A DNA stretch of 64,000 nucleotides, taken from an uncultured bacterium. GTDB lineage: Bacteria > Patescibacteriota > Gracilibacteria > Absconditabacterales > Absconditicoccaceae. Shown here piece by piece: positions 331-36,800 of this stretch. Under the pieces are notes generated by a model that saw only the letters and a list, made by a program, of their open reading frames with translations, did no database searches and was not told the origin of the DNA. The position numbers and the translations under genes were made by a program. The stretch lies in contig CAMVSQ010000003.1 of the NCBI GenBank assembly GCA_947170225.1, positions 1 through 64,000 on the forward strand, given 5' to 3'. The first letter of the stretch is position 1. Every line of letters begins with the position of its first letter.

Positions 331-358
331 AAAAAAGCCCACAGTCGTGGGCTTTTTC
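331..358. terminator. Bidirectional intrinsic terminator
   Basis: The stem AAAGCCCA/TGGGCTTT has a short loop and is flanked by A-rich and T-rich runs. It lies between the end of the repeat-protein gene (+) and the dnaK relic (-), so it can close both transcripts. Confidence 0.8.
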
Positions 359-378
359 TATTATTTACACAGATATCA

Positions 379-608
379 TTAGTCTGCATCAATTACTTCA
401 TCTGGCTGTGTAGCTTCTCAATTGCTTTCTGCTCAAGCATCTGTGCCAGTTTGTTCGCTTCCATTACTTCAGTTTGCTGGTTGCAATTCTGCACTGTGTT
501 TCTGGTACCAATCCGCAAATTCTTTGTTCAATCTTTCCAATTCTTTTTCACAATCTTGTTTTGTAGCATCTTCTTTGTCTTTCATTTCTTTTGCTGATTC
601 GATCAAAC
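379..608 (-). pseudogene. dnaK 3'-end relic (duplicate of the DnaK C-terminus)
   Basis: Read on the minus strand this encodes about 75 residues matching the C-terminal end of the intact DnaK at 9727-11637. The helical-lid stretch ([16 protein letters not shown], then [20 protein letters not shown]) is nearly identical. The Gly/Ala-rich linker has diverged, but the terminal QPDEVIDAD is the same. Homology stops abruptly near 608, 14 bp beyond the stop codon of the rlmN-like gene, and no plausible start follows. The frame is intact to the TAA and TGA still falls on glycines, so the copy is fairly young or was kept by conversion. It marks the far boundary of the six-gene islet. Confidence 0.9.
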
Positions 609-622
609 CTTTATAATGTTAA

Positions 623-1654
623 TTATTTAATGGCATTGTATAGTTGTCAACAACCGGCATTTATTTCTGTTCAAAATTGACTTCTAACACTGTTTGAAAT
701 TCATTTAGAGTTAAGTACTTCTATAAAGTTATTAAGTCTTTGTTTGTTACATTGTTTATAGTATGTTGAATTTTCACTCGAAGAGTTGTATGGGATTAAA
801 TCGATATGATAAAAAGACAAATCTACACTACTATGTTCGTGCAATAAGTTAAAAATTTCTTCTGCATGTTCTTTTGAATCATTAATTCAATTTATCAAAG
901 TGTATGCTAGATAAACTTCTTTGCCGGTTAATTTGATGTAATCATCTAATGCTTTTATTACATCATATAATGGAAATATTGCATTAATAGGCATCAATTT
1001 GGTTCTTTGTTCTGTAAATGGGGAATGTAAAGAAAATGTCAAATTAATATTTGGGAATGTATCAAATAATTTATACATATTGGGAATGATTCATATAGTA
1101 GAAATTGTAATTATGTCTTGATTTAAACCGAATAGTTCTTGGTCTGTTAATTCCTTTATTGCATTAAATATATTTGGATTTGAAAGTGGCTCTCACATTC
1201 ACATAAACGATATCCAGTTGATTTTTTTTCATTTAAGGTAAAAATATAAAATTTGATCAGTTATTTCCTCTACTGTAAGATTTCTTCTTAATCCCATTTT
1301 CCCCGTTGAACAGAAATCACATCCGAAGTTACATCAACATTGTGAAGAAATACAATAATCTTCCCAATCCTTCCTAAACGATAGATTTACAGTCTCAATC
1401 TTCTCTCATCCATTTATTTGAAAAATAATTTTGTTAGCTTTCTCGTAATTCTTTATATATATTGGATTTATACTACATATTTCATTTCAAAAGTTTTGCA
1501 TTATATTATCTTTTAAGTCTACTGGTATTCCAACAATTTCTTCATATTTTCAAATTTTTTTTCTAAAAATAGAATTTAATATCGATTTATATTCAACCAT
1601 AGAATAGCCATTATCCATAATAAAGCTTTTTAGCTTTTCAAATTTAGATTGCAT
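623..1654 (-). CDS. rlmN: RlmN/Cfr-family radical SAM 23S rRNA adenine methyltransferase
   Basis: This 343-residue protein belongs to the family that methylates an adenine in the peptidyl-transferase centre (C2 of A2503 by RlmN, C8 by Cfr) and, for RlmN, tRNA. The radical SAM cluster motif is C108-x3-C112-x2-C115, in the context [11 protein letters not shown], followed by K-M-G-L-R-R-N-L-T. The SAM-binding GMGEPL motif follows. The catalytic C-terminal cysteine (C335, in GCGQL) is present. Length is slightly below the usual 350-390. It is the last gene of the islet operon, 28 bp after the P-loop kinase and 14 bp before the dnaK relic. RlmN and Cfr cannot be separated by eye; the symbol is the conservative choice. 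A Cfr-type activity would give antibiotic resistance. Confidence 0.85.
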
Positions 1655-1682
1655 AATATTTAATGTAATATATAAAATTTAA

Positions 1683-2252
1683 TTACAAAATAGGATATTC
1701 CTTTTTTAAGGAATTAATTAATTTATCTATTTCTTTGTAAAAATCATTTATTCAAGTATTGTTTTGTATAACAAAATCTGCATTTTTTTTAAATTTTTGA
1801 ATATTTTTTTCAGTAATATTTTTATTTTCTCTAACAAATTCTTCAAAACTTTTATTTTTATCTCAAGCATTCTCATCTCTCGTTATTATGCGATTATATC
1901 TATTATTTATGTCGGAATCAATATAAATTAATTTAAATATTTTTTGAGAAGAAAATATTTTTATATCCGACTCAGTACGTATTCAATTAATTAATAAAAT
2001 CTTTTGTGTAGATTTCATGATTTTTTTTAAAATTGCTTTTGAAATTGCATCATTTCAGAAATATTCCCAAATTAAACCAGAAAATTTCATTAAATTATAT
2101 CTATTTGCTTCTATTGAAAATGCACTTAAAATTTCTCTAAGAATAGTAGATGTTTTAAATATTTCTCATCAAAATTTCTCAACAACATAATTAGCAAAAG
2201 TATCTTTTCCGGCTCACATTTTTCAACAGATTCACAATATTAACTTGTTCAT
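1683..2252 (-). CDS. P-loop kinase, dNMP/dephospho-CoA kinase-like
   Basis: The protein has 189 residues. The N-terminus is a hydrophobic strand followed by a Walker A loop, G10-K-M-G-A-G15-K16-D17-T18, typical of small-molecule kinases that use Asp-Thr after the Lys (deoxynucleotide and dephospho-CoA kinase relatives). A basic helical segment in the middle (NNRYNRIITRDE) resembles a lid. The C-terminus is Lys/Asn-rich. The start ATG lies 15 bp after the kinase/nucleotidyltransferase stop, consistent with co-transcription. The substrate cannot be named. Placement between a nucleotidyltransferase fusion and an rRNA methylase suggests it serves the same pathway. Confidence 0.75.
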
Positions 2253-2267
2253 GCGCTTTTATAAGTT

Positions 2268-4634
2268 TTAAATAACTTTTGTAAGTATAATGTTGTCAAT
2301 TATTTTATCAATAATTTTGTTGTTTTTATGTTTATTTATAGCGATTTTCTTTATATCTATCTGAAATTTTCTATGGAAGTAATATAAATAGTAATGATAC
2401 TTTCTAATGTTGAAATTATTTAACATTAGCTCTTGAGTTAAAATATTTGCAGCATTTTTTATTTCAGGAATTTCGTTTATTTCAGGGGTAGAAATATATT
2501 TATTTCGATAAAAAAAGTATATGATTCTATATATTGGAACATTAAATCATTTTATATTTTCTATTTTCCTTAATTTTTTCGTATTTACGGCATTTTTATA
2601 TTCATTATACGCAATTTTTGTCTTTCATAACTCATATTTATCTTTTAATAAATTAATATTTTTAATAAACTTATTGGAGCTATTTTTATCACCAAACACA
2701 TACTCAAAAACGTATCAGTAAACCTCATTGACAGGTAATTTCATTTCGTTTAATGTGTTTAATTTAAAAAATTCATCTAACATCTTTTCATAAAACATAA
2801 GAAATGTACCTACATCTCTTCTAAATTTATATATATCTAATAATCTTAGTGTAATATCTTCTGATTCATCGGTTCGTTCGTAATTTTTATAAGGAAATGA
2901 AATATTTTTCCTTTGACATAATTTAATTATATAATCATATTGTACATATTGATTCATTATTGAAAAGATATTTTCGTTAACAAATATTCCCACACACCCC
3001 AATGCAGCTTTATATTTTTCTATTAATGTTATGTTTGATTTAGATGCGATTCAATTAGTAAAAAAATATCAATCTAGATCACTAAAGAAATTCATATTAT
3101 TATGTACGTAACTACCTCATAATAATAAAAAAGTATTTTTATTTTTGCCAATTACTCACAACACCTTTTTGATCATTTTTTTATAGAAATTTTTAATGTT
3201 TTTATTATATACTTTTCCATTTTTAAAAAAAACTTTAATTATTTTTTTATAGTCTTTTAGTGATTTGACCTTTAAAGATATGAGTTTTTCAACTTCCTTA
3301 TTTTTTAAAATATTTTTTTTAATATATTTTTGTCCGTTCATGAAGCACAAAAATAATGAATATTCTTGGTATAAATCAAATTTTTCATTTTGTATATTAT
3401 TGAAAAATTTTTTTATGGAATTTAATATTCATTTGTTTCATTGTTTAATTACATCAATTAAATTTTTCATTAAATTAAGTACTTCTTTTTGACATCAATC
3501 TTGAAAATATCCAGTATTATAATCAAGTAAACAGCATTTCCCTACAAATCGCATAAAGTAGAAGTAATCTTTTTTATCCAATTCTTTTATAAATTTATAA
3601 ATAATTACTTCCTCTTTTGTTTCTAAATAGTCAGTTAAATATTGTCAAATAGAATGCCCATAGACAATTGTTCAGTTTTTTGGATGTTTTTTTTCTATTT
3701 CACTTGTTAGATAAAGAAGTTCTTCCCTTTTAACTTTAGATATAGTTTTATTTCCGAACCATGCTTCTTCAAAATCATCGGAATTTACTTTCAAATCGAT
3801 TTCATCAAGTTGTTCTTTTGCCCCCTTAATCCTATATTCAATAACATCTGAAAACCAAATAGGAATAAACTTTTCATAATAATCCTTTTTTTCTTTTGTA
3901 ATTTCATTTTTTGTAAAAGTTTTCTCAAAATCTATAAGTATCAATTTATTATTTTTATATATTATGTTTCTAGGTGCAATCGAATACCAGTATATACCTT
4001 TTTGATCCATTAATTCTAACAATAAATCAACATTCTTTACAAATTTTTGTATATTTATTTTTTTCCCTTCTTTAATTTCATCTTCTATAACCTTTCATTC
4101 CCAAGAAGTTATCATATATCCTTCATCTCCTGTTGTTCTAATAAAGGCCACATCTTTTGGAAGATGAAACTTTTTGCTTAATGTAATTAATTTTTCTATT
4201 TTCACAAAATTGTTTACCATCTCTTTTACAGATTTTAATTTACTAATGACAAATCTTTTATTTTTAATAAAGAAAACTTTAGGTCATTTTAATTGATTTA
4301 TATAATTATTAGAACTCGATATACCAGGACCTTGTTCAAATATATATTTAATTTTAGATAAATTATTTTTAATTCGTGTTTTAAAGGAGTCATCTTTACT
4401 AGCAATTTTAACTATATTGCAAGTATGCTCACCATTATTTTTTACTTTTATAATATCCATGTATAAGTTTTCTTTACTTTTTCAAAAAGGCGGCAAAGTA
4501 CAATTGCTAATATCAAGAAGTTTAAGTTTAATATAATCAGAATGCTTTCCTGTATGTAAAAATAAGTAATTATTAATCAAATGTTTAGTTAAATCACTAA
4601 TATAATTTTTATTCGTATTAGATGTGGTTAACAT
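2268..4634 (-). CDS. Kinase-like and nucleotidyltransferase two-domain protein
   Basis: A 788-residue protein with no TAA/TAG interruption. Residues about 210-240 carry an atypical kinase core: P-R-N-I-I about where the catalytic loop belongs and ID-F-E as the metal-binding DFG-like strand, as in APH/choline-kinase-type folds. The catalytic-loop Asp is not obvious (IAPRN instead of HxDxxxxN). From about residue 500 a nucleotidyltransferase motif appears, G506-G507-S508 then S518-D519-L520-D521, as in minimal/ANT-type NTases. A Lys/Asn-rich helical tail follows. It starts 5 bp after the TIM-barrel/NTase gene, so translation is probably coupled. Such a pairing could modify a small molecule (as aminoglycoside-modifying enzymes do) or a protein or tRNA. 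No exact family is recognised. Confidence 0.65.
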
Positions 4635-4639
4635 TTTTT

Positions 4640-5773
4640 TTATAAATTATTAAATCCTTTTAAATTTTTAAAATATTTGTTTTTATCTCAACATAAAAAT
4701 ATAGATTTCATCAAATGGGCGTTTTTTATTTCTTCTATATCCTCTTCGACTAGTCTTGTTTTTTTATCATTTACAATATTATTTACATTTTTTTCAGAAA
4801 AGAGTTCTATGGGATATGATTTATCTATAGTAAATCACAAGTTTTTACATAGTTTTATGTATTCTTTTATAAAAGATTTTTTATCAATCGTATGTTTTGT
4901 GCATAAAAATACATCTAGGTCGCTTCATTTATGACAATTGCGTTTTGCAAATGATCAATATATAAAAGAATATACAATATCTTTATTTAATTTCGCAGAT
5001 ATAAAATTTTTAATTTCAAATATTACATGTTTTTGATAGATAGGTAAATTTAAAATAAGTCAATTAAATGGTGGTATTTTATTTTGTAACATATATATAA
5101 TATTATTATAATAAGTTTTATATTTAACATTTATTTCCAATGATATATATTTTATATTGTGTATTTTTTTTATAAATTCTTTTGATATTATGCCTTTTCA
5201 ATTATATATAGAATTATGTGTGTCACATATTCAAAAATTATTATTAAAATGGAAATACAATACATTATTATCTATCCAGTTATCAATATTTTCTTTTTTT
5301 AGTATAGAATGTCACCAATCGATACATTTTTTTACTCACGGTAATAATCATAATAAATTTTGATATAATTTATTATATTTTTTACTAGAGTATTTATAAT
5401 TTTCAACTAATATAGTAGTTTTACTACGCTTAATATATTTATTTATTATTGTTAATACATTATGGTCAATATTTCATAGTACATTGTCATGGAGTATAAT
5501 AAATTTTGGGCTAAATTGTAAAGCAAACTTTATATCTTTAATTAATATATCAATTTTATTACTATCGTAATCATTCCTTAAATGTATTGTTAATATATCT
5601 TTAATCTTCTTTATATATCTTTTATTTTCATACAAGAAACATATATCAAACTCTATTCAAAATTTATTTTCTTCTGATAGTTTTATGTATTTTTTTAATT
5701 CTGATAATTCAGGATGTACAACCAAAATATTACCATCCCGCTGGTCAGGTATTATAGTTTTTTCATATAACAT
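4640..5773 (-). CDS. TIM-barrel (sugar-phosphate isomerase-like) and nucleotidyltransferase fusion
   Basis: A 377-residue protein. The N-terminal 250 residues alternate hydrophobic strands with polar ends such as ILHDN, ILVENYK, IDWGHS and YFHFNNNFG-x-x-DTHN. This pattern resembles xylose-isomerase-like/AP-endonuclease-2 TIM barrels, whose metal ligands lie in such strand ends. From about residue 268 there is a clear NTase signature: YGSFAKRNCHKGSDLDVFL, with G273-S274 and metal-binding D285/D287. The ATG lies inside the end of the decarboxylase gene (44-nt overlap in another frame), and the next gene begins 5 bp after the stop. The NTase call is firm; the barrel is inferred from strand pattern only. 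Substrate unknown. Confidence 0.65.
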
Positions 5774-7373
5774 TTTGGTCAAAATTTATGATATTGTTAA
5801 AATCATTTATAAAATTTGTTTCCTCTTTTTTTGCTTCATCAAAAAGCACCATTAGAGACTCCTTTATACTTTTTTTTGTAGTTAAAGGATTTCAACTTGA
5901 TATAGCCATTACAGTATATCTATCATCAATTGATAGCCCCACATTATTTGCTACATCATGTAATTTATACTCATCTAAACATACATTTCATTCAACATAT
6001 AATTTTTGATTTATTTTATGCGTATATTGGCTTATTAACTTTTGTATTTCAGCCTTTTTATCCAAATGCTTTTTTAAACAAGTTTTGATTTTTTTAGGAC
6101 AATAAACAAATGCCATTCTATAAAGTTCCATTTTATTTAATGGTATAAAAAAACCTGAATTATTTATTAAAGATTCTCAATATTTAGAAATATTATACCT
6201 ATGCAAGATTTCTTTTTCTATTCACTTTATTCACATGGTTTTTATCATAAGCCGAATAGGCAAAGAATCAAATCATCTAGATCATAAAAATGGAGTTATG
6301 TATCCTAAATCTCGACTGTTTCATGATTTACATTCTTCTTCATATCTACTGAATTGAGTTAATATATCTCTCCTTTTAAAAATAACATAACTTGATGAAT
6401 ATGGTAAGAATAATCATTTATGAGGGTCTATAGTGACAGAATCTGATGTTTCTATTCATTTTAAATACTGATTTTTTAATTTTTTTGCGAACAGTAATGA
6501 TCAACCATGACAGGCGTCAGTATGGAGCCATAATTTATTTTTTTTGCAAAATTGTCACATTTTTTCAAGATTATCAATATTTGTTGTTCTAGTATTACCG
6601 GCGACACTAACAACCATAAATGGTTTCTTATAAGATGGTAATGATTTTAATATACTATCTATTGCATCAAAATCGGTTGTAAAATTTTCTTTAACAGGAA
6701 TATCTATAATGTTATCTTTTCATATTCATAAATGATGGACAGCAGCATCCAATGAGTAATGAGATATTTTTTTGGATAACAAAATAATTGGTTGATAGTC
6801 CAAGGATGATAATCATTTATATTTTATTTCGGGAAATGCATAATTTAATGCTGACAATATTGCTATATGATTTGATAAATGTCATCATGTTGTCCACATT
6901 CATGAAACCTCCGATAATGAATTAACATCTTTTAGATTTTTATAATCATACCCTATCAAAAAGCGGAACCATTCTATTAATTGTATTTCAATAAAAGTAG
7001 CAATAGGTGCAGATCTATCAAAAGCTATTAAATTTTGATTTAAGAATTTAGAAAATATGGCTCACATCATTCAAGGCATAGAATTTGCAGAATCAGGGAA
7101 AGCTAAATAGTTTATATCTGATTGTGCTATAGAATATTCCCCAATTTTCTTTAATAGCTCTAGAACTTCTTCTAACTTAATTTTCTCTCTTGGTAGTTTT
7201 TGATCTATATTTTCTTTAAAAAAACATGGAGACCTATATTTGAGTATTTTGTTGTCTCTTAATTTTCAATCTATGAAATCCAATCATAACTTCACGACTT
7301 TATCGAGTACTTTTTCCTGTTGAGCATTATATTTTCAAATAAAAAAGTCATTTATACGATTAGAGTTTAACAT
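5730..7373 (-). CDS. PLP-dependent group II amino-acid decarboxylase
   Basis: A 547-residue enzyme of the glutamate/aromatic-amino-acid/cysteine-sulfinate decarboxylase superfamily. The PLP-binding lysine is K319 in TIDPHKGLFLPY. The upstream HTDACHGG holds D286, which pairs with the pyridine nitrogen, and VAGNTRTTNID is the typical Ser/Thr-rich strand before it. An N-terminal PDSANSMPGMMGAIF segment matches the substrate-side region of the fold. Length is normal. The gene starts 42 bp after argS and overlaps the next gene by 44 nt, placing it in the islet operon. The amino-acid substrate cannot be predicted; the adjacent ArgRS makes arginine or a derivative worth testing, but that is only context. 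Confidence 0.85.
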
Positions 7374-7415
7374 ATCATAGTGAAATATTAAGTAAAAATA
7401 TAATGTATAAAAGCA

Positions 7416-9539
7416 TTACATTTTATCCGGAACTGAAACGTTACAAATTCTTAATCAGTTAGTCAAAACTGTTACAAATGCCTTTGTTATATTTACTTTT
7501 GATTCTATAGCGATACCATTTTTAAGTACTCTATTTGTATTATAGTAGTTATTATAGTGTTGACATAGGTTCAACATAAATTCTACTAATACAGATGGAT
7601 TGTTTTTTTCTAATGCCTCTTTAATAACGAGCGGAAATCTATTCATTTCATTTATTAAAATTTTCTCTATTTTATTCAATGGTTCCTGAGCTTTTTCTAT
7701 TTTTGTATCTCAAATTTTTTTTAGTATACTATTTGCTCTAACCACAGTATATAACAAATAAGCTCATCATGATTCTTCAAATCATTTACAAGCAGTTTCT
7801 ATATTGTTATCTATTTTTACGGCAGCCTTTCTATCTGCTTTGATATCATTTATTATTATAGATCAAATAGCAAGCTGTTCTGATATTTTATTAATTTCTT
7901 CCTCAGATAATTCAGAATTTATATATTTGTTTTTAAAGTACTTTATTGTTTCCTTTATTAGGTTTTGTATATTAGAAGCTCAATCTCTACTTGATAGTTT
8001 TTTACCAGAATCTGCGTCTATATAAAATCCATGATCAACATGTTCAAATTCTACACCAGAAATACCCATTTTTTTAGCTGAGGCGAATAACTTAGTAAAA
8101 TGGTCTTCTTGTTCTTGTCATACTTCGTAAACTATTTTATCAGGTGCAAAATTTAAAACCCTATATGCTATTGCTCAGAGATCTCTTGTAGCATAAATAG
8201 AACTTCCATCCAATTTCATTATAACAAACCTTCATATTCCATCTAAAGGTATTACATAAGAATTTACATCTTTTAGTATCGCTGCTTTTTCTCTATCAAA
8301 TATTTCTTGTGTTATTTCTTTATTAAGAAGTTTTTTTTCTAGTATAGAAATATCTTTCTTTGCTAAATCATCCGTATACAAAACAGCAATTCATTTTTCT
8401 AATAATCATTTAATTAATCTTTTTCATATATTTACATAAAAACTTTCTCATATGCAATAATCTAGGTGAATATTAAGTGAATCGTAAAACTTATTAAAAT
8501 CTTCCATACTTCGATCCACCATTTTTTTCCAAATTTCTATTTCATCTCATCCGGACTCTAAACTTGAAAATATCTTATTTCAATTTGCGATAAAATCACT
8601 AAATATTTTTTTAAATTCATCATAACTATCGAAGTCTCAATAATATTTACTTAGTTCTTCTTTATCTTTTTGAGTCAATTTATTATATTCATCCTCATTT
8701 TTGTAAATCTTCTCTCATTTTCTATACATTGAATAGATAAAAAACAACATATCATTTTTTGTCTCGCAAGTAGGTATTTTGTCCTTTCGTCTATTATATC
8801 ATTCTATTAAATATCAAAAACCTCATCGATCATTAACATGGTTTATTCTGTGCGTAATATATCCATTTTGACGATATAAATTTGATAATATCTCTCAAAT
8901 AATGGTAGATCTTATATGTCATGCATGTAAATGCTTTGCCGCATTTGGCGAAGAATAATCAAGTAAAACCTTTTTTCATTTATTTAGATTGTTTTCTCAG
9001 TATTTATATCCTTTTTCAAAAACATTTTCAACAGTTTTTAATTGATATTCGTCTGATAAAGTAATATTTATATACATACCAATGGTTTCAATTTTTTCAA
9101 AAACTTTATTTTTCACCAAAGAGCTATCTTCTAGTTTTTTTAAAATCAAAGGTATAAATTCTGTAATATAAGTTTTTGGCTTATATTTTTCGAGCAATGG
9201 TGGTATTTTTATACATATGTCTGAATTAAATTTATTCCTATCTATAAAAGATATACTAATGTCATCATTACAGGTAATAAGATCATCGATATCCTTTATC
9301 GCATTAAATACCTCGTTTCTAATGGATATGATTGGATATGATGAATAATCTAGATTCTCTTCTGTACTACTATTAATTCTATCTCTAGTTTGTAAAATTT
9401 TTTTATGTAATGATGTATTAAGTAAATCTAACTTATTATCAGATTCTGATAATAACATTAATAAATCGTCGTTGGTGATGCTCACTTTTTGTGGTTCAGT
9501 CTCTATGCATTTGTTGTTTGCCATTGTTGTTTCTTTCAT
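7416..9539 (-). CDS. argS: Arginyl-tRNA synthetase
   Basis: A 707-residue class I synthetase charging tRNA-Arg. The ArgRS signature DYSSPNAAKHLHAGHIRST spans about residues 194-212 with the HIGH-type motif H205-A-G-H208. The KMSKS-equivalent appears as KLSSRDGA, as in other ArgRSs. The C-terminal anticodon-binding domain ends GLRICNVSVPDKM, the usual family ending. The protein is longer than typical (550-600) because of about 60-80 extra polar N-terminal residues; a second ATG five codons in is an alternative start. It is the first gene of the islet operon, preceded by its own promoter. Codon choice is visibly richer in TTA and ATA than in dnaK or rpoB. Whether this is the sole argS of the genome or a second, resistant copy is unknown. 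Confidence 0.9.
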
Positions 9540-9681: not shown

Positions 9682-9712
9682 AAAAAAGCTGAGCATTTGC
9701 TCAGCTTTTTAT
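9682..9712 (-). terminator. Intrinsic terminator of dnaK
   Basis: A perfect stem AAAGCTGAGCA/TGCTCAGCTTT followed by a T-run on the minus strand, 15 bp after the dnaK stop. It separates dnaK from the islet operon. Confidence 0.9.
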
Positions 9713-9726: not shown

Positions 9727-11637
9727 TTAATCTGCGTCGATTACTTCATCTGGCTGAGCTGAATCTCATCCATTGTTCTCATTTCAAGCATCTGGAGTAG
9801 CTTGATTATCTGTTGCTCAAGCACTTGGTTGCAATTCTGCACTGTGTTTCTGGTACCAATCTGCAAATTCTTTGTTCAATCTCTCCAATTCTTTTTCACA
9901 TTCTTCCTTTGTGGCATCTTCTTTGTCTTTCATTTCTTTTGCAGATTCAATCAACTTGTTTACTTCATCTTTTGCATCATCAGAGAGTTTATCTTTGTTT
10001 TCATCTATAATATTTTGCATTTGGTAAGTCAATTGTTCCAATTTATTTTTTGATTCTACTAGTTCTTTTCTTTTTTTGTCTTCTTCTGCAAATTTCTCTG
10101 CTTCTTCTTTTGCCTTTTCGATTTCATCATCAGACAAGTTAGTTGCTCATTGGATGACTACATCCTGCTTTTTTCATGTAGATTTTTCTTCAGCACTTAC
10201 TTTCAAGATTCAGTTTGCGTCGATATCAAATGTCACCTCAATTTGAGGTTGTCCTCTCCTCATTGGAGGAATTCATTCCAAATTAAATTGCCCAAGAGAT
10301 TTATTATCCTTTGCAAATTGTCTTTCTCATTGCACTACATGTACTGTTACGGCGTTTTGATTGTCTGTGGCAGTAGTGTAGATGTTTGATTTTTTTGCTG
10401 GGATTGTTGTGTTTCTTGGGATCAAAACATGAGCCAATCCTCATTCAACTTCTACAGCCAAAGAAAGAGGAGTCACATCCAAAAGCAAGATATCTGTCAC
10501 ATTTCATTGGATGATTCATCATTGGATTGCTGCTCATTGTGATACGGCTTCATCAGGATTTACAGTAGCTTTCGGATCTTTTCCAAAGATATCCTTTACA
10601 ATAGTTTTTACAGCTGGCATTCTGGTAGATCATCATACCAAAATTACTTCATTGATGTCATTTTTGTCCAGTTTACTGTCTTTTAATGCTTGGATAACTG
10701 GTTGTTTACATCTATCCAGCAGATCTTTACAAAGATTTTCAAACTGTGCTCTAGTCAAACTTTCTGCCAAATTCTTTGGCTGTCATTTGTCATCTGTACA
10801 GATGAAAGGTATCATTATATCTACTTTTTCTGTTTGAGAAAGTTGCATTTTAGCTTTTTCTGCTTCGTCTTTTAGCCTTTGCATAGCCATTGCATTATCT
10901 TTCAAATTTATTCATTCTTTGGTTTTAAATGCGTCTACCAAATAATTTATGATTTTTTGGTCAAAATCTTTTCATCCAAGTTGGGTATCTCCACTTGTAG
11001 ACAAAACTTGGAATGTTCATTCAGATCCGATTTCCAAAATTGTTACATCAAATGTTCATCCTCAAAGATCAAATACTACAATTTTTTCATCTTTGTTTTT
11101 TCATTCTCCATAAGCCAAAGAAGCGGCAGTAGGCTCGTTGATGATCCTCTCAACCTTCAATCCTGCAATTTCTCAAGCTGCTTTAGTAGCATTTCTTTGA
11201 GAATCGTTGAAATATGCTGGTACTGTGATTACAGCTTGTGTCACAGGTTCTCACAAAAATTTTTCAGCATCTTCTTTTAATTTTTTCAAGACGAATCCAG
11301 AAATTTGTTCTGGTTTGTAGTCTTTTCCATCAATAGAAATCAAAACTCATCCATCTTTTCCCTCTTTCATGTCAAATGGAGAATCTTTGACTTCATTTTC
11401 TACTTCTTTAAATTTTCTTCAGATAAATCTTTTTGTTTCAAAGATAACATTTTTTGGCTCCAAAATAGCCTTTCTTTTTGCTAAATCTCACACCAACATC
11501 TCATCTCATTTGATATAAACTATTGATGGAGTTGTCCTAGCTCATTCAGAATTTGCGATTACTTCAGATTTGTCTCATAGCATGTATGAAACACAAGAGT
11601 TAGTTGTTCACAAATCGATTCAAATTACTTTTCACAT
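9727..11637 (-). CDS. dnaK: Molecular chaperone DnaK (Hsp70)
   Basis: A 636-residue Hsp70, the usual length, which folds client proteins in an ATP-driven cycle with DnaJ and GrpE. The N-terminus is MGKVIGIDLGTTNSCV, the phosphate-1 loop, with three of its glycines encoded by TGA. The nucleotide-binding domain, substrate-binding domain and a charged helical lid follow, and the tail ends [12 protein letters not shown] at 11637 is the only start giving the canonical N-terminus. It is transcribed alone: promoter and CIRCE-like operator upstream, terminator downstream. No grpE or dnaJ adjoins it. Its last 230 bp are duplicated at 379-608 on the other side of the islet. Confidence 0.98.
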
Positions 11638-11668
11638 GATAATTAAGAATTAAGAATTAAAAACGCAT

Positions 11669-11760
11669 TGTCATTCTGAATGTAGCGAAGCGAAATGAAG
11701 AATCTAATTTAATGTATATTTTTTTAGATTCTTCGGTCGTAAACTCCCTCAGAATGACAT
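11669..11760. repeat. Dispersed imperfect palindrome (REP/MITE-like), copy 1
   Basis: The left arm runs from TGTCATTCTGAA through AGCGAAGCGAAATGAAGAATC (11669-11704). The right arm runs from GATTCTTCGGTCGTAAACTC to CAGAATGACA (11727-11759). The arms are inverted and imperfect. The same ends and internal GAAGCGAA-type motif recur at 54236-54305. It lies in the dnaK 5' region, inside the leader. Confidence 0.7.
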
Positions 11761-14644: not shown

Positions 14645-17600
14645 CTAAATTTTTACTTCCATTTTTGCAAGTGGTTGTTTGATTTTTATGTTGTTTTTTG
14701 ATCTAATAAACAATCCCAATGTAATTATTTTTCTCACCAATGCAATTTCTTGTATCAGTTCTGGGTCAATGTACCTTTCAGACAAAATAGGGAAGTGCTT
14801 CAAATGTACAGAATCTACATCCATTTTTCATTTGTTTGTAAAGTTTTGCAATTGCAGATAGATATACTCACTGATAAACGGTGCAAATGGAGCTGCAATT
14901 TTTACAAATGTCTCCAAAACTTCAAATAGTGTGCTATATGCGGAAATTTTGTCTTCATCCATTCCACTTGCCCAAAATCTTCTTCTACTTCTCCTTATAT
15001 ACCAATTTGTCAGACTATCCACAAATCACATCATAGCTTTGGTAGCATTGTCCAAATGATATTCTTCCATTTCTTTTCGCACTTGAATACCAACTTCATT
15101 TAAACTAGCCAATATCCATCTATCTAAATCATTTGTGATTTTGTAGCTTGGCAATCTGATTATTTCTCATTTTAAAAGATTATTTTTCTTTCAATACAAA
15201 TCTTTCCACAATTCTACAAAATTTACATCATGTGAAACTATCAAAACATTATTTCCCTTTTCTTGACCCAAGATTTCATTGTAATATTGTGTAGTTTTTT
15301 CATATCATTCTTGCCACAATTTTTCATTTTCCACTATTTCAATATCTTTGTTTATATATTCTTTGTATATTTCTCTGATTCTTTCAGCTGTTTGTTTTGC
15401 TCTCTTGGCATGAGAAGTATAGATCTTATCCAAATTTAATCTCAAAATTTTTGATACAAATATTTCTTTTTCCATGCTTGCGATTCATTCAGCTGTCAGT
15501 TCGTCATCTAATTCAAATCATGTAGCAGCCGCATGTCTCATAAAGTATACATGTGTATCATCAGTCTTGAAATTATCTACTTTTGCATAAGTTTCAAAAA
15601 ATTTATATGCATTTGTCAGTGAAGAAGTGAAATCTTTGTATACTTGGTCTACTCATTTTTCTGCAAATCTCATTGGCTCAGCTTTTACTGCTGGAGATGA
15701 TAGCATATAAAGTCTATATGCATCTGCACCATATCTTTCAAACAATTCTTTTGGATCTGGGTAGTTGTTTAAACTCTTTGACATTTTGCGTCCATCTTCA
15801 GCCAAAATCAAACCATTTATCACTACATTATTATACGAATTTTTTTCCATCATAGCATTTCCCAGTACATGCATCACTCTAAATCGACCTCTAGTCTGAT
15901 CCAATCACTCCATGATCCAGTCTGCTGGATAAATCAGAGGTTTGATTGTCCTTGTTGTTCAGTCTTTCCTCCTGATGTATCATACTTGTCCAAATGGCAT
16001 AGCTCCAGATTCAAACCAGCAATCCATGACTTCAGGTATCCTGTGATAAACTTTTCAATCAATATTAAACCAATATTTGTCCACATGTGGTCTGTGCAAA
16101 TCCAATTCTTTACCAGTATCATTGTCAAAATAGTGGATCCTCATCCTTTGAGATACAGATCAATTCATATGTGGATAAAAATAATCTCTCCTACTGCAAT
16201 AATCAAAATTTCTAAAGAAATGTATAGCAGAAACTACAACTTCTCAATGTGCATAAGTAATAATCGTCTTTGTTTTAAACTTTTCATTTATATCTTTGAT
16301 AAATGATTCAACTCTCTGGAATATGTGGTCTACAGTTTCTCCATCTGGGAATAATTTTTCACTTGTAGGTACACTAGTCATATTCATACAATGGAATTCT
16401 ACTCATTGCATACTTGGATAATATGTCTCATGTACTCTCATATCCACGTATATTCACTCATGTAATTCAAATAATTGTTGATTGTCTGGATTTGTAGTAT
16501 AGTCAATCAAGCTACCATCATGATACATTGATTGAAATTTTTCTACTATCTCATTGTATTTTGGAGTAATTTCATCGATAATGCTTGCTCCAAATTTTTC
16601 AATCAAAAATGGTGTAGCTGTTTCGAGAGTTCTTTTTAATGGAGATAAAACAACTACAAATTCATTTCACGGTTTCAATTCATAATCCAAATTTTCCTTT
16701 ACAGTTTCTGCTCGTTCTTTTCATTTTTCAGTCAAAGTTCATTCTCATAGACAATCTCACTTATGAGCTACATTAAATTCAGTCTGTCCGTGTCTGATAA
16801 AAATATTTTTGGTCAAATTCTTTGATCCATTTATTGTACCTTGATAGATTTCATCAAGTGTTCAAATAGAAAGCCTATCTTCACTATCTGTATCATTTTG
16901 CCGGATAGGTATTGGAGATCATCGATATCTATTTCTTCCAAGATTCCAGTCTGGAGCAGAATCCAATACATCCAAAAATCTCTTTTTTACACTTTCTGGT
17001 ACAAATCATATTTCCTTTGCATTGCTTATATTGTGCTCTTTCAGTGTTGGTTCTTTGATAAACCAAGAGTCCATAGCTTTGGATATCAAAGCAGTGTGAC
17101 ACCTCCAGCAGTGTGGATACGAGTGGTTGTGCGATTGTAAAAGCACCAATTTTCATTCTTTTTTTAATCTATCGTTTATATCCTTATTTACTTCATAAAC
17201 TCTCTTTCATTTGTAGTCTGGTACTTCATCGGTAAATTCTCCATAATCATCTACTGGCAAAAATAATCGGTCTCTAGCAAATTCTCTAGGGAATATATTT
17301 GCAACCACTTCAAAGTCTTCAATTCCAAATGATGGGGCAATATGCACAATTCATGTACCATCTTCTGTACTAACATAATCTCCAAGTATCATTTGAAAAT
17401 ATCTATCCTTGTATTCATCAGGTATTTTGCTCTGATTTATGTACTCAAATAGTGGTTTGTAAAATGTTCAAGACAATTTTGATCATTTAATCCTATTTAT
17501 CAAAAGATAATCTTCACTATTTTTGTAATATTTTTTCAACAAAGCTTCTCCCAATACATAGTATTCGTGACTCTCTTTGTCGTATACCATGCAGTACCAA

Positions 17601-18787
17601 ATTTCAGGTCAAACTGCCAAAAAACTATTTGATGGCAAAGTCCATGGAGTAGTGGTCCAAGCTAAAGCATAAACAGGAGCATCAGGCTTGATTTGACCAG
17701 CAAAATTATTGTGATATGTATACAAATCATAAAATTGATTTATGATTTCATCTGCATCATCAATTATTGTATTTTCTATTTTTACTGCCATTCAAATTTT
17801 ATTTTCGCTTTCAATAATTTCGGCCCACTGCAAATGGCTGGTTTTCTCCGGTTCCATATTTTTTATTTCTCATTCCACTTCAGTCTCCACATAAATCAGA
17901 TTCCAGATATTTCATTTCAGTATCTCTTTAAATTCTCATAGTACTTTTGTATTTGTCACCTCAACTCCAAGCTCTTCCATTACTTCTTTGCTGACAGTTT
18001 TTTCTATACTATCTCATTTTTCCACTTTTCATCATGGAAATACATATTTTTGGCTTTTTGTATGATATCCCAACAAAATTTTTCATTCATGCTTGATCAA
18101 ACAGCAAACTACATTTACAGCACCATCATTTACTGTTTCATAATTATCTTTTTCAGCAAAAGCTTTGTTTGTTAGCTGAAATTTTACCGTAATTGCTGGA
18201 TCTTGTCTATCTTCGTATCATTCATTTACTTCACTATTTGACAAAGCAGTAGCACACGATGGACAGAACCACTGTACTTTGAATCATTTATAAACCAGAT
18301 TTTTGTTATACAAATTATCAAAAACATTGATTACAGACTCCATAAAATCCAAATTCATAGTCATGTAAGCATTTTTCATGTCTGCTCGTCTACCTATATG
18401 ATCCACAAACCAAGTCCATTCATCGCTGACATTACTTACATAATTTCTACATTCTTGAGTAAATTTTTCTATTCCAAGTTTTTCTTCTATGTCTCTTTTT
18501 CAATCGATTCCAAGTTGCTTTTCTACAGCTTTTTCTACAGGTAAACCGTGGCAATCTCGTCACCAATCTCTGATTACCTTGTATCATTTCATGCTTTTGT
18601 ATCTTCCTACCAAGTCTTTCATAACTCAGACCAATCCATGCCCAAAATGTGGAGTACCACTAGCAAATGGAGGTCCATCGTATGTAATGGCTTCTAATCT
18701 GTCTGATCTTTCGTCAATTGATCTCTGAAAAGTATTGTTTTCTTTCCAATAGTTGATTAAATTTTCCATCAATTCTTTTTGATTCAT
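14645..18787 (-). CDS. ileS: Isoleucyl-tRNA synthetase with inserted Nudix and two histidine-phosphatase domains
   Basis: This IleRS is 1380 residues long; the family is normally 900-1050. Class I core: [12 protein letters not shown] (H47-F-G-H50) and KMSKS at 1001-1005. The editing-domain threonine-rich motif [14 protein letters not shown] starts near residue 372, and [18 protein letters not shown] is present. Three extra modules interrupt it. (a) Residues about 215-330, before the TTTPW motif: a Nudix domain with box G253-K-V-E-K-G-D259 through K267-E-V-M-E-E-L-G-V275 (Asp and Lys replace the usual Glu and Arg). (b) About 660-885: a histidine-phosphatase domain, IRHGQTEFN (H666), [15 protein letters not shown] (H847), placed between the post-NRYRGSPIP segment and DLHRPHVD. 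(c) About 1080-1195, after KMSKS: a second one, FMRHAAATG (H1085), [15 protein letters not shown] (H1186). One frame throughout, no TAA/TAG. Confidence 0.95.
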
Positions 18788-28693: not shown

Positions 28694-31600
28694 TTAATAC
28701 TCAAGTAGATTTTTTATTTTAATTTTTACAGATCATATATTAGCGCCATTTGGATTTGTCCTAAAAGTATATATCACACTATTTGTCATGTTATCAAATC
28801 CATATTCTCCGTATAAAGTTGTATCTGTATATATTTGTCATATAGGCGAAACATATAGCAATACTTCTCCATTTCTTACTACGGCTTTTCATCCGTTAAA
28901 TTCTCCAAATCATTCATTTTCCAGTGGTACTACAGACGCATTATTTCAGTTTACATTCAAACTAACCAATTCTTTTCCAGAAAATATTACCCAAAACAAT
29001 GTTTTGTTTCATTCCATCACTTTGATTACAGGAATTTTTGGAGAGTAATCCAATTTTATGCTTATATTATTTTCAAAACCGGGAGTTATAGTAATTTTTC
29101 CACTTTCTGGATTTATTTTTGCTACTATATCTCCACTGGTAGAGTATAATCCAATATCATCACCCAAATCAAAATATCCACCATAAACATTTATCTGTTC
29201 AGCGGTAGTTCAAAAAGAGGAGATATATCTTCATCACACAGTTCCAGTTAAAATTTCCCATTTTTCATCATTTGATCTATCTCTCATAAACTGTACAAAT
29301 CCAGTATCAATATCCTGATCCATTTGGGCCACTATTGTCACAAAAGATTCACTATTTCAGACCGGAATTGCACTTGTACTTATAGGATTGTTTATGATAT
29401 TTCAGTTTAGATAGCTCAAATTTTGATTTCATTTCAAAATATTTGTGATTTGTATGTTTGGCACTTTGATTATCAGTCTTACATCAGATACATATTGATT
29501 TCCATCTATATCCACTCATCAAACATAAAATGTCAAATTTTTCTCTCCAGTAAAATATAGACCACTCAGCTCAATATAACCAGTTCTACTATTTATACCA
29601 CTTTCTCTAGCCAAAGTATTTCCTGCTTCATCAGCTATCCAAATTTCATTCAGAGCTACATTGTCTTCCCAATCTACCTGCAAAATATAATTTGTTCACA
29701 CATATCACTCCAGAGCAGATCACTCACTCACGATTTTGTCAGTAGCTGGTCTATACAATTTAATTTCAGGGCTTGGTCACTGCGTATCTGCTATTATTTG
29801 TGGTCCAGCCACTATTTGATTACTAGAGCTACTAGAAATTTTGTAAGTATTATCTACAAAATTCAGCGTATATATCTCACTATATTGCCAATTTCTAGGC
29901 AATTCTTCTACAGTCAAACTTATAGTATTGGCAGAGTCATTGTAGTACAAAAGATCAAATATCCTATTTCAAGTTCATATCCATCTTTCAGTATTATTTA
30001 GTGTTCATTCTTCCAGTTCCAGTTTTGTTCATGTCACTTCAGATCATTTAGGCAATACCAATACATATTTTTTATCAAAAAGGCTACTATTATTTCCCTG
30101 AGACAGCAAGATTTCACGATCATTAAATTGATCTACTCTGTGTATCATTTTTACCAAATATCCATCTACATTGTCTCACAAAATTTTGCTATTTAACCAA
30201 GAAACCTTGATAGTATCAAAAGTTTGCCCTGCATATTTAAAGTTTTTGACTTCTCGATTTGTATCCACTACTTTTACAAAAATAAATTTGCTAAACAATA
30301 CTCCTCAGTATCTTATCTTTACAAATCAATTTTCTGAATCAGATACCAAATCATCATAAGAATTTATTTTGTATACATAAAAGTTTGACGCATTTTCATA
30401 TTCAATATTTTCATAATTTGAATTTCATCATCTATATTTTACATAGATATTATTTTCATCCCACAAAATCAAATCAGAGCGACCATCCCCATTTATATCA
30501 GTCAACACAAATCTAGACTGAAATTTGTTTACATAATCATTATTTGCCAGCAAAAAACTACCTTCTTTTGTGTTCAAAGTATATCCATCAATATAATTTG
30601 AAATTTTTACATTACTATTGCTGTTTGTCATATTTGTACTACTATTTCATCATGCACTTCATCCAGCACTTTGAGCTAACAAAATTTTTGCACTATCACT
30701 ATCCATATCAAATAATTTTGCCGATAAGGTAATATCCCAAGAGTTGTCATTTACCAGAGAAATTTCATTGTCAGATACTGTAGCCAAAAATTTATCATAA
30801 TCATTTACTATCATATCAGCGATTTCCGAGTTGCTATTTTTGTAATTTTCCAACACAGTAGTATATCATTTTTCCACATTTTTTACAGCATCTATATTTG
30901 CCCCAATATGTCTATCCATAGCAATCAAAGACATAGATTCTTGAGCTCTATTTTTTATATCTTTGTTTGTTGCCCTTTGGTTGATTGCAGCCAAAGTATC
31001 GTGCAATATCCTAAAATTATTTTCATTTACATCAGGATCAAAATCTACATAAGATATAGGTTCTTCCACTTCTTTATACAGATTTTGTAGATTTTCAAAT
31101 CTCCTTTGCTTATCCAAAGTTTTTTTATCCTCAATTTCTTGTGCACCATCTTTTAGTTCAACATCCAAAATATTCAAACTTTCAAAATTTACATTTTGTC
31201 ATGCTTGTTCAATGTCACTGTTTATTTGATCCATCACTTGTTTTCCTTTGTTCAACAAAAGATTTTTCACTCCATCAAGTTCCTGTGATAGTGAATTATA
31301 AAGTCTTACCATCTCATTGTACGAATCAATCAATCATCAATATTTTCTGTTTAGCTCTTCAATTTCTGTTTGTAGACGTCTTATTTTTTCGTTGTTTTCT
31401 ACTATTTTTCCATTTAATCTATCTATTAGTTTTTGTGTATATTCAATTTTATCAGTCAGCAATTTTCTATCTATTTCAGTGCTAGCAGTGTTTAATTGAG
31501 CTCTATAGTCATTTAGTAGAGTAGTATTTTCTTGCAAATCTTTATTCCATTTTTCATTTTCGCTTTGCAAATTTTGGATTTGATCCCTTTTGCTTTCCAA

Positions 31601-33847
31601 TTCAGCTAAAACAGTTCCCAATCACTCAAATCAAGTTTCCAGTAATTTTTTGTATCTATCAAATCTTTGTTGCAATCCATTCAATCTATTTATGTCCTCG
31701 CTAGCTCAGACTCACTGACATTCAATAGAAAATATGTTGTTTACGCATGCTTGTAGATGATCAGTATATTCTTTGCTTATATTAGATACATAATTTGTAC
31801 CTACAGAAGCATAATCTGTCAATTTGTATGATACTCCATTTATCTCATTTACCACTCATTGCAAAAATGCATAAAAATCCTCAAAACTATATTGCAAATT
31901 TACATAAGTTTGCAAAGATAAATCAAATCATTTCAGCTTTACATCTCTAAACTGATTGGTCTGCAATAGGGCAGAAAATCCTGTAAACATATTTGCCAAT
32001 ATGCTAGGCATACCAGCACTTATAGTACTATTCCAGTCTGACAGTGTTTGATCAAATTGATCCCAGTATGCTACTTCGTAGTCTCTCTGAGTCATTTGCT
32101 CTACCTTTGCTTTGATAGAAGCTTCAGCAACTAATCCAAATTTTCATTTCACAATACAAAGGATTTTTCCAATGATTTCTGCGGCTTTTATCATAGTAGT
32201 TATTTCATTTGGTAGTCTAGGAATTTTTGGAGCAGGAGGCAACAAAGGTAATTCCATCTGCACACTAGGGATAAATGATGGTAAATCAGGCAAGACAGGA
32301 GGAGATGGGATTAATGGCAATCCTCACAAATTTCACATATTCAAGTTTAAATCTACCAATTTTAGTTGTGCTAAAATATCCAAACCAAATGCTAAAGTCT
32401 CATCCAAATTCAAAGACAAATCTATATCTGGAGGAGATGGGATATTTGGCAATTGAGGCAATGGTACAGCAATTGGATTAAATACAAAATTTGGCAACTT
32501 TATATCAGTCTCCAGATGTATTTCAGAAAAATCCAAGTATATGCTAGGTATCTTTGTCGGTGGAATCGGTATGACAGGCAAATCAATACCATTGCAGAGT
32601 ATTCCTAGCTTACATGTAAATTGGTCATAGTTATCATTTGTACAAGTGCTACAGTTTTCTGTCCAATCAGCAGACAAATCAATAATCAATTGGTATGTTT
32701 CCAGTGTGGTCATAAGCGTAATGATTGCATCTACATACTGAGAATATCTATTTGCATTGGTTTCCATCCACATAGATAGTGTTCACAGCACAGAATTTAC
32801 CAAACTAGAAATCTCTCCCAGATATCTATCTACTACATGTATCCACTCATATAGTTGCACTGGAAATTGCTTGTACATTTGTAGTGTTTCTATATTCTCT
32901 TTTACCGATCTCATCAAACTATCAGCGCTAGATTGTATATTCAAAAATCAATTTAGCATAGTATCAATAGTTCCATCCAAAAATATTTCTGAACAAGCAT
33001 TTCATACCACTTGGCTATCTTCTTTTATTTTTAGTCATTTAGTGCTTATAGCCTGTCAATTTTTTTTAATTGAAATTTTTGTTTTTCATGTGTTTATATT
33101 ATTTGATATCAAATCAAATCAAGATGTAAACATAGTCAAATCTGAAGTGCTTGGATCAAAATACAAGTACACATCAATTGGTATTACATTATTTACACTA
33201 TCAAAATATTTAGTATATACATAAAATCCTCAGTCTTGAGCTTCATATACTTTGTAATTTCACAGATCGCTCAAATTATATTTTTGCCTCAAATTTTGCA
33301 AAGAATCAATTTTTCACTGCAAATTTTCCAGCCTTGGACCATCTCAAATGCTTGATAGTATTTGTGAATCTGCTTGTCTGTATTGTTCTTTTAGACTTTC
33401 TATGGCTCTTTGTAGGTCACTGATTCAGTTTATATTTGTACTTCATCCACAAAATCATACCAGAGCTGTAAAAAAATTCTGCCAATCAGCCAAAATCTCA
33501 GTCTGTCTATTCATCCAGCTTTGGGACATACTAATATAAGAAGTAACATCTTCACTAGAAATCATAGGCACATCAATAGTGATATCTTGTGTGCTGATAT
33601 TTACTAGTGGAGTTTCGCTAAACAGTTCTTCCAGCTGTTCAAAAGGATTTGTATATTCCGACCAACTAGATACTTGGTCTCTACTCATCAAATTTTCCTG
33701 TCACCATGCATCCAATTGAGATAGTGCAGAATCATTAGCTTTACAGGTTTTTGTGCTACTGTCTCGTTTCAGACCTCTATTTTCACATTTTAGTTGCAAC
33801 GATGCTGGTGTATCTTCACAAAATCACGAAGAAGCATTCCAAACTCA
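28694..33847 (-). CDS. Giant surface protein, C-terminal reading frame (Ig-like and FG-GAP-like repeats)
   Basis: A 1717-codon frame from ATG 33847, in the same phase as the 3176-residue frame upstream but separated from it by a 48-bp stretch with three in-phase TAA codons. The N-terminus (MSWNASSGFCED) has no signal peptide. This suggests it is the continuation of the upstream protein: translating the gap one base out of phase gives a plausible bridge, TCENNKGV joining WNASSGFCED. Contents: Pro-rich linkers around 32.3-32.6 kb, a long coiled coil (about 31.3-31.7 kb, ESKRDQIQNLQSENEKW), an FG-GAP-like calcium motif DINGDGRSDLILWDENN near 30.49 kb, and beta-sandwich domains to the end. Probably extracellular. 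Either a separate gene or a frame-disrupted tail. Confidence 0.7.
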
Positions 33848-33895
33848 TTTATTATTTTCGCAAGTTTCCTTCTTTCAGTTTGTGGTCGATTGTAT

Positions 33896-36800
33896 ATTAT
33901 TTACTTTGCTTACAGGTGGCATTTTTCAGATAATTCATTCAAAATCTGGCCAAATTATGCTTATTTTGAAGTTTGTCAGATTGTTCATCACATATTTTAT
34001 CTGCTTGTCCAACCAAGATTTTACTACTTTTTCTATCAATCATTTTGCATTTGATCATTCAATTTTATTTTGAAAATTAGCACCCCCCTCCAATAATATT
34101 GCATCAATATCAAAAGAATTATCTTCTGTATAATAAGAACTAGTTTCGGGCTTCCTTTCTATGTTTATAAATCATCAAGCGAAACTACCATCAGGTACCG
34201 CTTTATAAAAATTTTGACTATTATTACTTGATGCACCAAGTACAAAAGGGCTACTAGATTCATTATTTCCTACATAGCAAGGGATATTTTGTTTACTACA
34301 TCATTTCAGCAATGTGTATTCATGAGGGATTTCAGTAGTTGCATTGAATCATAAGTTATTACTAGATCCTTCACCTCCACATGGTAAATGTACAGCAAAT
34401 ACTACACAGTTTCATACTATACTACCTACTGGATCTGGTATATTTGCTCATACATTGTATGGTCCAAAGCACAAAGCAATTCCCAAATCCAAAGTCAAAG
34501 TAGGCATCAAATACAGTCTAAATAGCGAATTCCAAGTTCATCCATAATTTCCCAAAAAGAATCCATCAGACGGTCATTTAAATGGGTATCCAAATATTCA
34601 AGGAGCAGGTATGTATCAAGCGATGGTAGGTCACCAGTTTCCAGGTATTGTTAGTACAGGCATTCATTTCCCCAAAGTCCTACTCAGAGGAGCTATTTCA
34701 TAGCATCCAAACAAATGATATTTTCATACTCACAAAAATGCTTGATTAAACGGTACAGGCAATCCACATCCACCTTGTCATCCCAATCCCAGAGTAGATA
34801 AATCAACTCAATTACACATTCATCATATCACTTTATCTATTTCTTGTACAGCATCACTTGTCAGACCATTTATTATTTCACTTCATATATTTACAGTATT
34901 AGAAACATTTAGTCACTGTGCTGATAGCATACCCCTTCGATCCATAGTTTCCACGAGACCAGCGAATCATCAGATTTGATCCCACAGTGCTTGAGCATCT
35001 TCACTGGCGGCACTACTTCACACACTACCAAAAACTTCGTCTTCAGCATTTGCTCCATTTTCTATACTCTGTAAATTGTAGTTATTTACAATTTTTGCCA
35101 AATCCATATATTTTTGACTATATTCTCTAGGTTCACTATTACTTGTTCAGTCGTTGAAAAATACAAACATAGAATCATTACATCCGTCTTGTGGCTGTAC
35201 GGTAATGTCTGGATATTCATCATAATCTAAATATCCAGCTAAACTATCTCCAGACATTATATATCATGCAAAATTGCTTCATGTCAATTTATTTATCTCA
35301 ATATCCATCACAGGACTATCATTGTATATCAGTCAGTAGCTAAATTTTATTCTATCTCATCTCCTCATATTTATATTGTCTATCATATATCTAGCATTGT
35401 CCAGATCCCGGTAGATATTTTCTGTCATGGATTCAATCTGTCATGAAGTGATATAACCCCTCTGTATATAAGAACTATCAAACCAAAAATTTTCAAAAGT
35501 CTTGTCATCATACTCAGACAGTGGGATAATCCAAGGACCAGAAATATTGTCAATAAATGTTCATCTAAAGCTTTCATTTGCCTGAATATACACAGTCACC
35601 CTTACCAAATCTCCATTTACCAAAGATCATGTATTATCTATTATTCCAGAGTCAATTGTATTATTATTTAAATCTTCGTAAGTTTTATAAACTTTTACAG
35701 GATCTTGTCCTGTCAGACACCCTATTTCTACATAGTCAACATCATTTGCACTTTCAATATCGGTTTCATACGCAGGTATTACTCCAAATCATGATTTTTT
35801 TAGCCTTTCATCTTGTTTATACAAATTTGTAGCCGCAGAAATATCAAAACCTCAAATTCAATCAAAAATTTGATTTATATTACCCAAGTTTATGTTTTCA
35901 AAATTGCTTGGATCCATCCCCACATCTTGTGCAGTAATTTCATCTCACTCATCTTGTCCAAGTCATCTCCAGCGGATCAGACTCTGATCCAAAATACGAC
36001 TATTGCTATCCACTTTGATTCCAAATTGATGTACTGTTTTTGAATTTTCTTCAATTCTTTCATACCAATTTTCATCACACATATATTTGTTTGTAGAAAG
36101 ATAATTTACATTACCATCACTTTCTCATCAGTAGAAAATTTTTATAAATCACAAACTATCGTTTGTCACTATATCCACAGCTCCATCCAGATCCATATCT
36201 TCCAAAAATATCTGATGAAGCCCAGAAATTTTTTCTGGATTGCTAGATATCTCTCATTTATTTACATTTATGTTTACACATACAGGATAACCATCTACAT
36301 CAAAAATTCACAAATTATTTTTGTAAACTCTCAATCATCCAGCTTCTGTCCATACTATCAGATCTTGATAACCATTTCCATCTACATCTCATACAGATAT
36401 ATCACTTATTCTATCAGCCAAAATTTTCAAAGCTCACAAATTTTGGAAAGGATTTGTTCATCCATAATTTTTCAAAATTTTTATAGTTCAATCCTTAAAT
36501 ACTACTATAATATCTTCCAATCAATCATTATTAAAATCAATATTTTTTACTTTCAGTATTTCTTTACCAGGTTCAGCATAAATTACTTCTCCAAGTCATA
36601 AATCAAATTCTGTATCTTTTTTCAGTGTACCATCTATATTGTAAATTCTGGCAGATTCATTGTCATTTATCCTTTTTAGTAGAGGATCTCAAATATTTAT
36701 CAGCAATTCAGAACCAAAAGGCAACGTAGCTTCTCATACGCTCATCCCTCATCCAAAATTTGTGATATTTTTAAATTTATCAGTAAATCATATTCACAAA

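Follow-up and report, generated by a model that had tools for sequence, protein, structure and literature searches.

An acquired island in a Gracilibacteria genome combines an apparently undescribed decarboxylase-nucleotidyltransferase gene set with arginyl-tRNA synthetase and Cfr-type methyltransferase genes

Introduction

Biosynthetic gene clusters are, to our knowledge, not expected in host-dependent, gene-poor bacteria. Among the described systems closest to the locus reported here, Microcin C (MccB/D/E/F) follows an amino-acid/nucleotide Trojan-horse logic, and its pathway includes a PLP decarboxylase. In the case of agrocin 84, a second leucyl-tRNA synthetase, AgnB2, protects the producer and is encoded on pAgK84 alongside the agrocin genes (PMC5059758). 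A BLAST survey for resistance genes across candidate-phylum genomes reported many 'cfr' matches (PMC8651080); these may include rlmN.

The locus analysed here lies in a window of 64,000 nucleotides (positions 1-64000 of contig C3) of the 0.95-Mb, 94% complete draft genome of an uncultured member of the Absconditicoccaceae (Gracilibacteria); all statements on this genome refer to one draft assembly, without reads. A reading of the sequence only had proposed that six genes at 623-9539 form an undescribed pathway related to antibiotic modification, self-resistance or small-molecule synthesis. Like Microcin C, the locus combines amino-acid and nucleotide chemistry in its predicted enzymes, but its decarboxylase comes from another fold family, and no ThiF-type MccB-like adenylating enzyme was present among the six proteins and the neighbouring genes scanned.

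Results

Six genes open under the TGA=Gly code

All six genes proved to be real: they lie on the minus strand at the positions previously given and are open under translation table 25 (TGA=Gly), and are interrupted by 98 in-frame TGA codons when translated with table 11. This code is typical of Gracilibacteria (PMC4032931). Contamination by a Bacillota contig was rejected because TGA encodes glycine in all six genes (98 codons).

In the direction of transcription, all on the minus strand, the block comprises argS (7416-9539; 707 aa, with intact HAGH (205) and KLSSR (514) motifs), a group II PLP decarboxylase (5730-7373; 547 aa) of a clade with a C-terminal PA(G/S/C)W tail, a TIM barrel (Endonuclease-IV/CbiR-like) fused to a Pol-beta nucleotidyltransferase (NTase; 4640-5782), an 'APRN' kinase-like domain fused to an NTase (2268-4634; 788 aa; assigned by motifs and homologues), a P-loop (deoxy)nucleoside-monophosphate-kinase-like protein (1683-2252; 189 aa; phrog_139, E 3e-18), and a Cfr-clade radical SAM 23S rRNA A2503 methyltransferase (623-1654; 343 aa). 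Domain matches among the six proteins were to ArgRS, Pyridoxal_deC, Polbeta/NTP_transf_2, radical SAM and the AP_endonuc_2 barrel, and no peptide ligase, NRPS or exporter was found in the block.

From argS to cfr, the genes are separated by 42 nt, an overlap, 5, 15 and 28 nt, in agreement with the gaps of 5-42 bp reported before. The overlap, between the decarboxylase and barrel-NTase genes, depends on the start codon chosen, and alignment with the homologue in genome G570 places the probable start of the barrel-NTase at TTG 5725, 4 nt past the decarboxylase stop, which would replace the overlap by a short gap. The shared promoter that had also been proposed gained no support, as a scan returned 84 sigma-70-like sites compared to 86 in shuffled sequences. 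Elsewhere in the window, a single 4910-aa open reading frame with a signal-peptide-like start (28694-43426, minus strand) probably encodes a giant surface protein.

The block is an acquired island between two dnaK ends

Upstream of the block lies an intact dnaK (9727-11637, minus strand), the sole full copy (95% self-match; 83% to that of the same-genus genome G001). Its final 228 bases (9727-9954) recur on the other side of the block as a duplicated dnaK 3' end (379-606, minus strand; 81% DNA identity, 72% aa), a feature missing from the sequence-only reading. Terminator-like hairpins were found at the two block borders only, one 3' of dnaK (9683-9710, minus strand) and an unrelated one 3' of the duplicated dnaK end (331-358, minus strand), with none internal. 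No second dnaK tail was present in any of the 14 relatives examined, and dnaK as a general insertion hot spot was rejected on this basis. The G+C content is 23.7% within the block versus 31.1% outside.

The block is thus an acquired island missing from relatives: a gene 3' end is doubled at its two borders and the duplication is absent from related genomes, as in an integrative element. No integrase was found among the open reading frames of at least 80 aa between the dnaK repeats. Because TGA is used for glycine in the block at the frequency seen in resident genes, a related organism sharing this code is the probable donor, and the block probably entered by recombination at the dnaK 3' end from such a close TGA=Gly relative. 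We infer from the layout that one crossover by a circle bearing a dnaK 3' end could have produced it. In addition, inverted copies of an intergenic repeat (93% over 42 bp) are located upstream of dnaK (11668-11709) and between rpoB and rpoC (54265-54306).

A decarboxylase and APRN proteins form a conserved core

Among plasmids, the decarboxylase best matched one of Roseibium aggregatum (40% over 89%), with the other listed matches below 29%, and a two-row decarboxylase profile then uncovered relatives in six other Patescibacteria. The resulting clade (100/99) unites the decarboxylases of the window, G570 (54%), G579 (52%), G388 (44%) and the Roseibium plasmid (40%), and all five are linked to an APRN protein, mostly fused to an NTase. 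In Roseibium, a 601-aa protein encoded 5 kb from the decarboxylase has a kinase-like and a Pol-beta NTase domain in the architecture of the 788-aa window protein, with the degenerate loop GFAPRN where the window protein has SIAPRN. In G579 and G388, the APRN protein follows the decarboxylase immediately, and in G570 the decarboxylase, barrel-NTase and APRN protein occur in window order with overlapping genes (143 and 82 bits); the G570 APRN protein ends in a true APH phosphotransferase domain and has no NTase. The expectation that the NTase fusions would recur with the decarboxylase elsewhere was therefore borne out, including in the order of the genes.

The barrel-NTase and APRN-NTase homologues were reached only by way of the decarboxylase, the Roseibium plasmid and the two-row profile. 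Plain sequence searches of viral contigs, plasmids and phages returned none, no full-length homologues of either protein were seen in class or phylum samples, and the APRN-NTase protein was found in none of 48 other genomes of the family. The APRN-linked clade does not include three further decarboxylases, which accompany a CobD-like PLP enzyme and a small NTase, and those of family genomes G012 and G014 form a separate clade. The CobD-linked clusters (L192 8726-13577, L193 7767-11019, L194 151-3170) encode a decarboxylase, a small MNT-type NTase and a CobD-like PLP enzyme, and that of L192 also has an APS-kinase-like gene. The PA(G/S/C)W tail is found at or near the C-terminus of the P0002, L180, L189, L190 and L191 decarboxylases and is missing from the other decarboxylases compared; it is a possible docking or modification site.

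The core of decarboxylase and NTase/APRN proteins is therefore a conserved and apparently undescribed gene set, and the six genes are a local assembly of this core with Cfr, the P-loop kinase and ArgRS. The view of all six as one pathway, as proposed before, finds support for the core but not for Cfr and the P-loop kinase, neither of which was seen in the other clusters. The complete six-gene set occurs in this genome alone among those compared, which, together with its argS being the sole copy, would be expected of composite acquired DNA that has no joint function and is retained for the cell's only argS. We consider such an origin improbable, as three contiguous genes keep their order in G570, the reading frames are intact and dense, and an ArgRS again lies near other clusters.

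The surroundings of the clusters bear on a further possibility, that a nucleotide-activated amine produced by the decarboxylase and NTase serves to decorate glycans or lipids of the surface or cell envelope and that ArgRS and Cfr are unrelated cargo. The Roseibium cluster is surrounded by glycosyltransferases and sugar-nucleotide enzymes and that of G579 by glycosyltransferases, and neither has an ArgRS nearby. However, glycan genes are missing from the window block and from the part of the G570 surroundings that was read, an ArgRS is close by in three of four clusters, and nucleotide-sugar and CDP-amine enzymes are not usually Pol-beta NTases, so that a role in envelope decoration appears unlikely.

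Near the G570 cluster (L189 4181-6342 and 7692-8174), we found genes for a GNAT acetyltransferase, an S66 LD-carboxypeptidase (MccF fold family) and a nucleoside deoxyribosyltransferase, the last immediately upstream of the cluster. The GNAT and S66 peptidase genes represent the folds of MccE and MccF of Microcin C, but the S66 protein best matches muramoyltetrapeptide carboxypeptidase.

Metal-site and NTase motifs are kept and the kinase-like domain lacks its catalytic Asp

The two neighbouring NTase fusions described before, one with a barrel and one with a kinase-like domain, were recovered, the latter by motifs and homologues. In the barrel-NTase, the putative metal ligands (H98, E127, D155, H158, H178, D187, H189, E216) and the NTase motif (GS276-277, D288, D290) are shared with G570, where they are invariant at an overall identity of 31%. 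The barrel resembles the CbiR cobamide-remodelling phosphodiesterase and Endonuclease IV in its TIM barrel and Endonuclease-IV-like ligand set but differs in its fusion to a Pol-beta NTase, and the similarity is weak (E 9e-5 to PF01261, under its cut-off; E 0.005 to CbiR).

Both the kinase-like and the NTase part of the 788-aa protein are under Pfam detection, and their assignment comes from motifs and homologues. Single-sequence AlphaFold runs gave no usable fold (mean pLDDT 39 and 32). The PRN...DF(E) motifs suggest a kinase-like fold as in APH and Bud32-RIO kinases. In contrast to these, the catalytic HxD Asp is replaced in all five APRN proteins (APRN/ALRN motif), with the Asn and the DF(E) Asp retained; in the window protein, S218 takes the place of the Asp, N223 and D235 are kept, and the NTase residues are GS507-508, D519 and D521. 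Because the catalytic Asp is missing in all members, aminoglycoside-type phosphorylation by this domain is unlikely, and the 'APH-like kinase' of the sequence-only reading is better described as a kinase-like domain.

Weak matches of the NTase domain were to MntA and to NTases of candidate defence systems, and the partner proteins ArgRS and Cfr work in translation. Both observations would suit a tRNA/rRNA-modification, defence or toxin-antitoxin cassette, in which tRNA or protein would be the substrate of the NTases, as for MNT or MenT, with ArgRS and Cfr acting on the same translation machinery. Yet no HEPN partner lies next to the NTase and no toxin was detected, and known systems of this type have no role for a PLP decarboxylase, making a cassette of this kind very unlikely.

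The last gene encodes a Cfr-clade methyltransferase

The methyltransferase of the block scored 460-463 bits with Cfr models (near, yet under, the curated cut-offs) and 233 with RlmN, and shares 43-49% identity with Cfr A-D and 44-51% with Bacillota Cfr. In a tree with 57 Cfr rows it is nested, on a long branch, within the Cfr clade, which is split with 100% SH-aLRT from RlmN rows including the native RlmN of this genome. The cysteines of the CX3CX2C motif and the two catalytic cysteines (C101, C108, C112, C115, C335) are invariant with Cfr A-D. At ten residues that separate Cfr from RlmN, six are Cfr-like, two RlmN-like and two neither, compared to none Cfr-like in the native RlmN, which is encoded on contig C14 next to valS. 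The tree and this native copy ruled out a housekeeping RlmN.

By its position in the tree the gene is a true Cfr-clade member, for which methylation of A2503 at C8 and drug resistance are predicted. Its clade placement and all five functional cysteines match those of Cfr A-D and ClbA; it differs in being encoded with TGA=Gly and in residing in an operon that is not of resistance type. The second rlmN-type gene for which a search had been proposed is hence present in the form of this Cfr-type copy, with the native RlmN on another contig, in keeping with self-resistance. Within a 242-genome sample of the class, none of the other genomes listed had two Cfr/RlmN matches, and the partners of the six-gene block were found at none of 80 Cfr/RlmN loci.

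A true Cfr, together with Pol-beta NTase domains with intact motifs, raises the possibility of a resistance or protection island without biosynthesis, in which Cfr shields the ribosome, ANT-like NTases modify drugs and ArgRS is drug-tolerant, guarding the epibiont against antibiotics of its host or neighbours. In line with this, cfr elsewhere adjoins drug-modifying genes, such as the aph(3')-IIIa of a Campylobacter plasmid. We nevertheless regard this explanation as doubtful: the conserved core is a decarboxylase with a pseudokinase-NTase and not a resistance pair, its homologues adjoin biosynthetic genes (radical SAM, sugar-nucleotide enzymes and glycosyltransferases), and the kinase-like domain has no catalytic Asp in any member.

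ArgRS recurs near related clusters

A second argS in this genome, for which a search had been proposed before, was not found, the block copy being the only one found in the assembly. The same-genus genome G001 has an ArgRS of a different type at a PBP-tyrS-argS locus; the matching locus of the window genome has the PBP (68% identity) and a divergent tyrS (42%) and is missing argS. As the sole copy, the island ArgRS probably serves housekeeping, whatever its other roles. ArgRS proteins of the family are of two types, and that of the window, on a long branch, groups with one of them (96/97); an AU test on a smaller tree rejected a single clade uniting all family ArgRS (p 0.04).

The tyrosyl-tRNA synthetase of this genome (G000 contig C14, L149, 2387-3616; 42% to that of G001) likely represents a xenologous replacement, and its strong divergence suggests that replacement of aminoacyl-tRNA synthetases (aaRS) may be common in the lineage. 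The isoleucyl-tRNA synthetase of the window (14645-18787, minus strand; 1380 aa) has a NUDIX domain inserted at 224-326 and two histidine-phosphatase stretches, the best from 662.

An ArgRS lies within 10 kb of the cluster in three of the four chromosomal clusters (window, G388, G570), and near none in G579 or Roseibium. In a simple length model, the chance of at least three of four is about 9e-5, a statistic that is post hoc and leaves out other genes that might have been picked. In G388, a series on one strand comprises genes for a radical SAM protein, the decarboxylase, the APRN-NTase, a SPASM protein, a glycosyltransferase-like protein and ArgRS, and this argS is a second, different copy, the other ArgRS of G388 being of Patescibacteria type. 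G570 has two ArgRS, one of them about 7 kb from the decarboxylase with divergently transcribed genes in between. The ArgRS of the window, G388 and G570 do not form one clade (AU p 0.008), which indicates that the association of cluster and ArgRS probably arose more than once. Near the CobD-linked clusters L192 and L193 (G297, G442), a methionyl-tRNA synthetase is encoded at 2-3 kb; it is not unusual to find some aaRS at distances of up to 10 kb.

A second aaRS beside putative biosynthetic genes, as in agrocin 84, was therefore found in G388 and, at 7 kb, in G570, and the window genome has a sole argS. In G388, the likeness to AgnB2 of pAgK84 consists in a second, non-native aaRS with genes hinting at nucleotide chemistry. 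The enzyme differs in being an ArgRS and not a LeuRS and, in the window genome, in being the only copy, and the resemblance to the agn genes drawn here is one of gene logic. The earlier proposal of ArgRS as immune target or aminoacyl donor is thus strengthened by the second copies near two other clusters but weakened by the single copy here.

Discussion

The decarboxylase, the barrel and NTase motifs, the dNMP-kinase-like gene of the window and the nucleoside deoxyribosyltransferase of G570 together suggest a nucleotidylated, amino-acid-derived molecule as the simplest common theme. In the pathway that we propose, the PLP decarboxylase would convert an amino acid to an amine, or modify it in some other way, giving a product to which the Pol-beta-fold NTases, the Endonuclease-IV/CbiR-like phosphodiesterase-type barrel, the APRN pseudokinase-like domain and the nucleotide kinase would add, or from which they would trim, a nucleotide. 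The outcome would be a nucleotidylated small molecule derived from an amino acid that disturbs translation. With AgnB2 as a model for self-immunity, ArgRS would be a self-protecting version of the target, its use as aminoacyl donor being less likely, and in this genome Cfr would add further protection of the ribosome. The acquired ArgRS would by now have become the sole ArgRS of this genome.

We tentatively favour the reading that the acquired island carries the core of a conserved pathway to such a translation inhibitor, with ArgRS and Cfr in self-protection, and hold it to be plausible, if short of probable. More speculatively, the clusters may represent a new class, spread over Patescibacteria and a proteobacterial plasmid, that makes an arginine-related nucleotidylated translation inhibitor through the APRN pseudokinase-NTase, that has repeatedly recruited a spare ArgRS, here also Cfr, and whose immune ArgRS once displaced the native one; we consider this broader view unlikely.

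The Cfr gene places a clinically important resistance clade in a candidate-phylum genome with the TGA=Gly code, on an acquired island. The conserved decarboxylase and pseudokinase-NTase set, with ArgRS attached, would point the way to a new translation inhibitor, the APRN domain would be a new enzyme family, and the cluster would offer a direct test of how an epibiont acts on its hosts.
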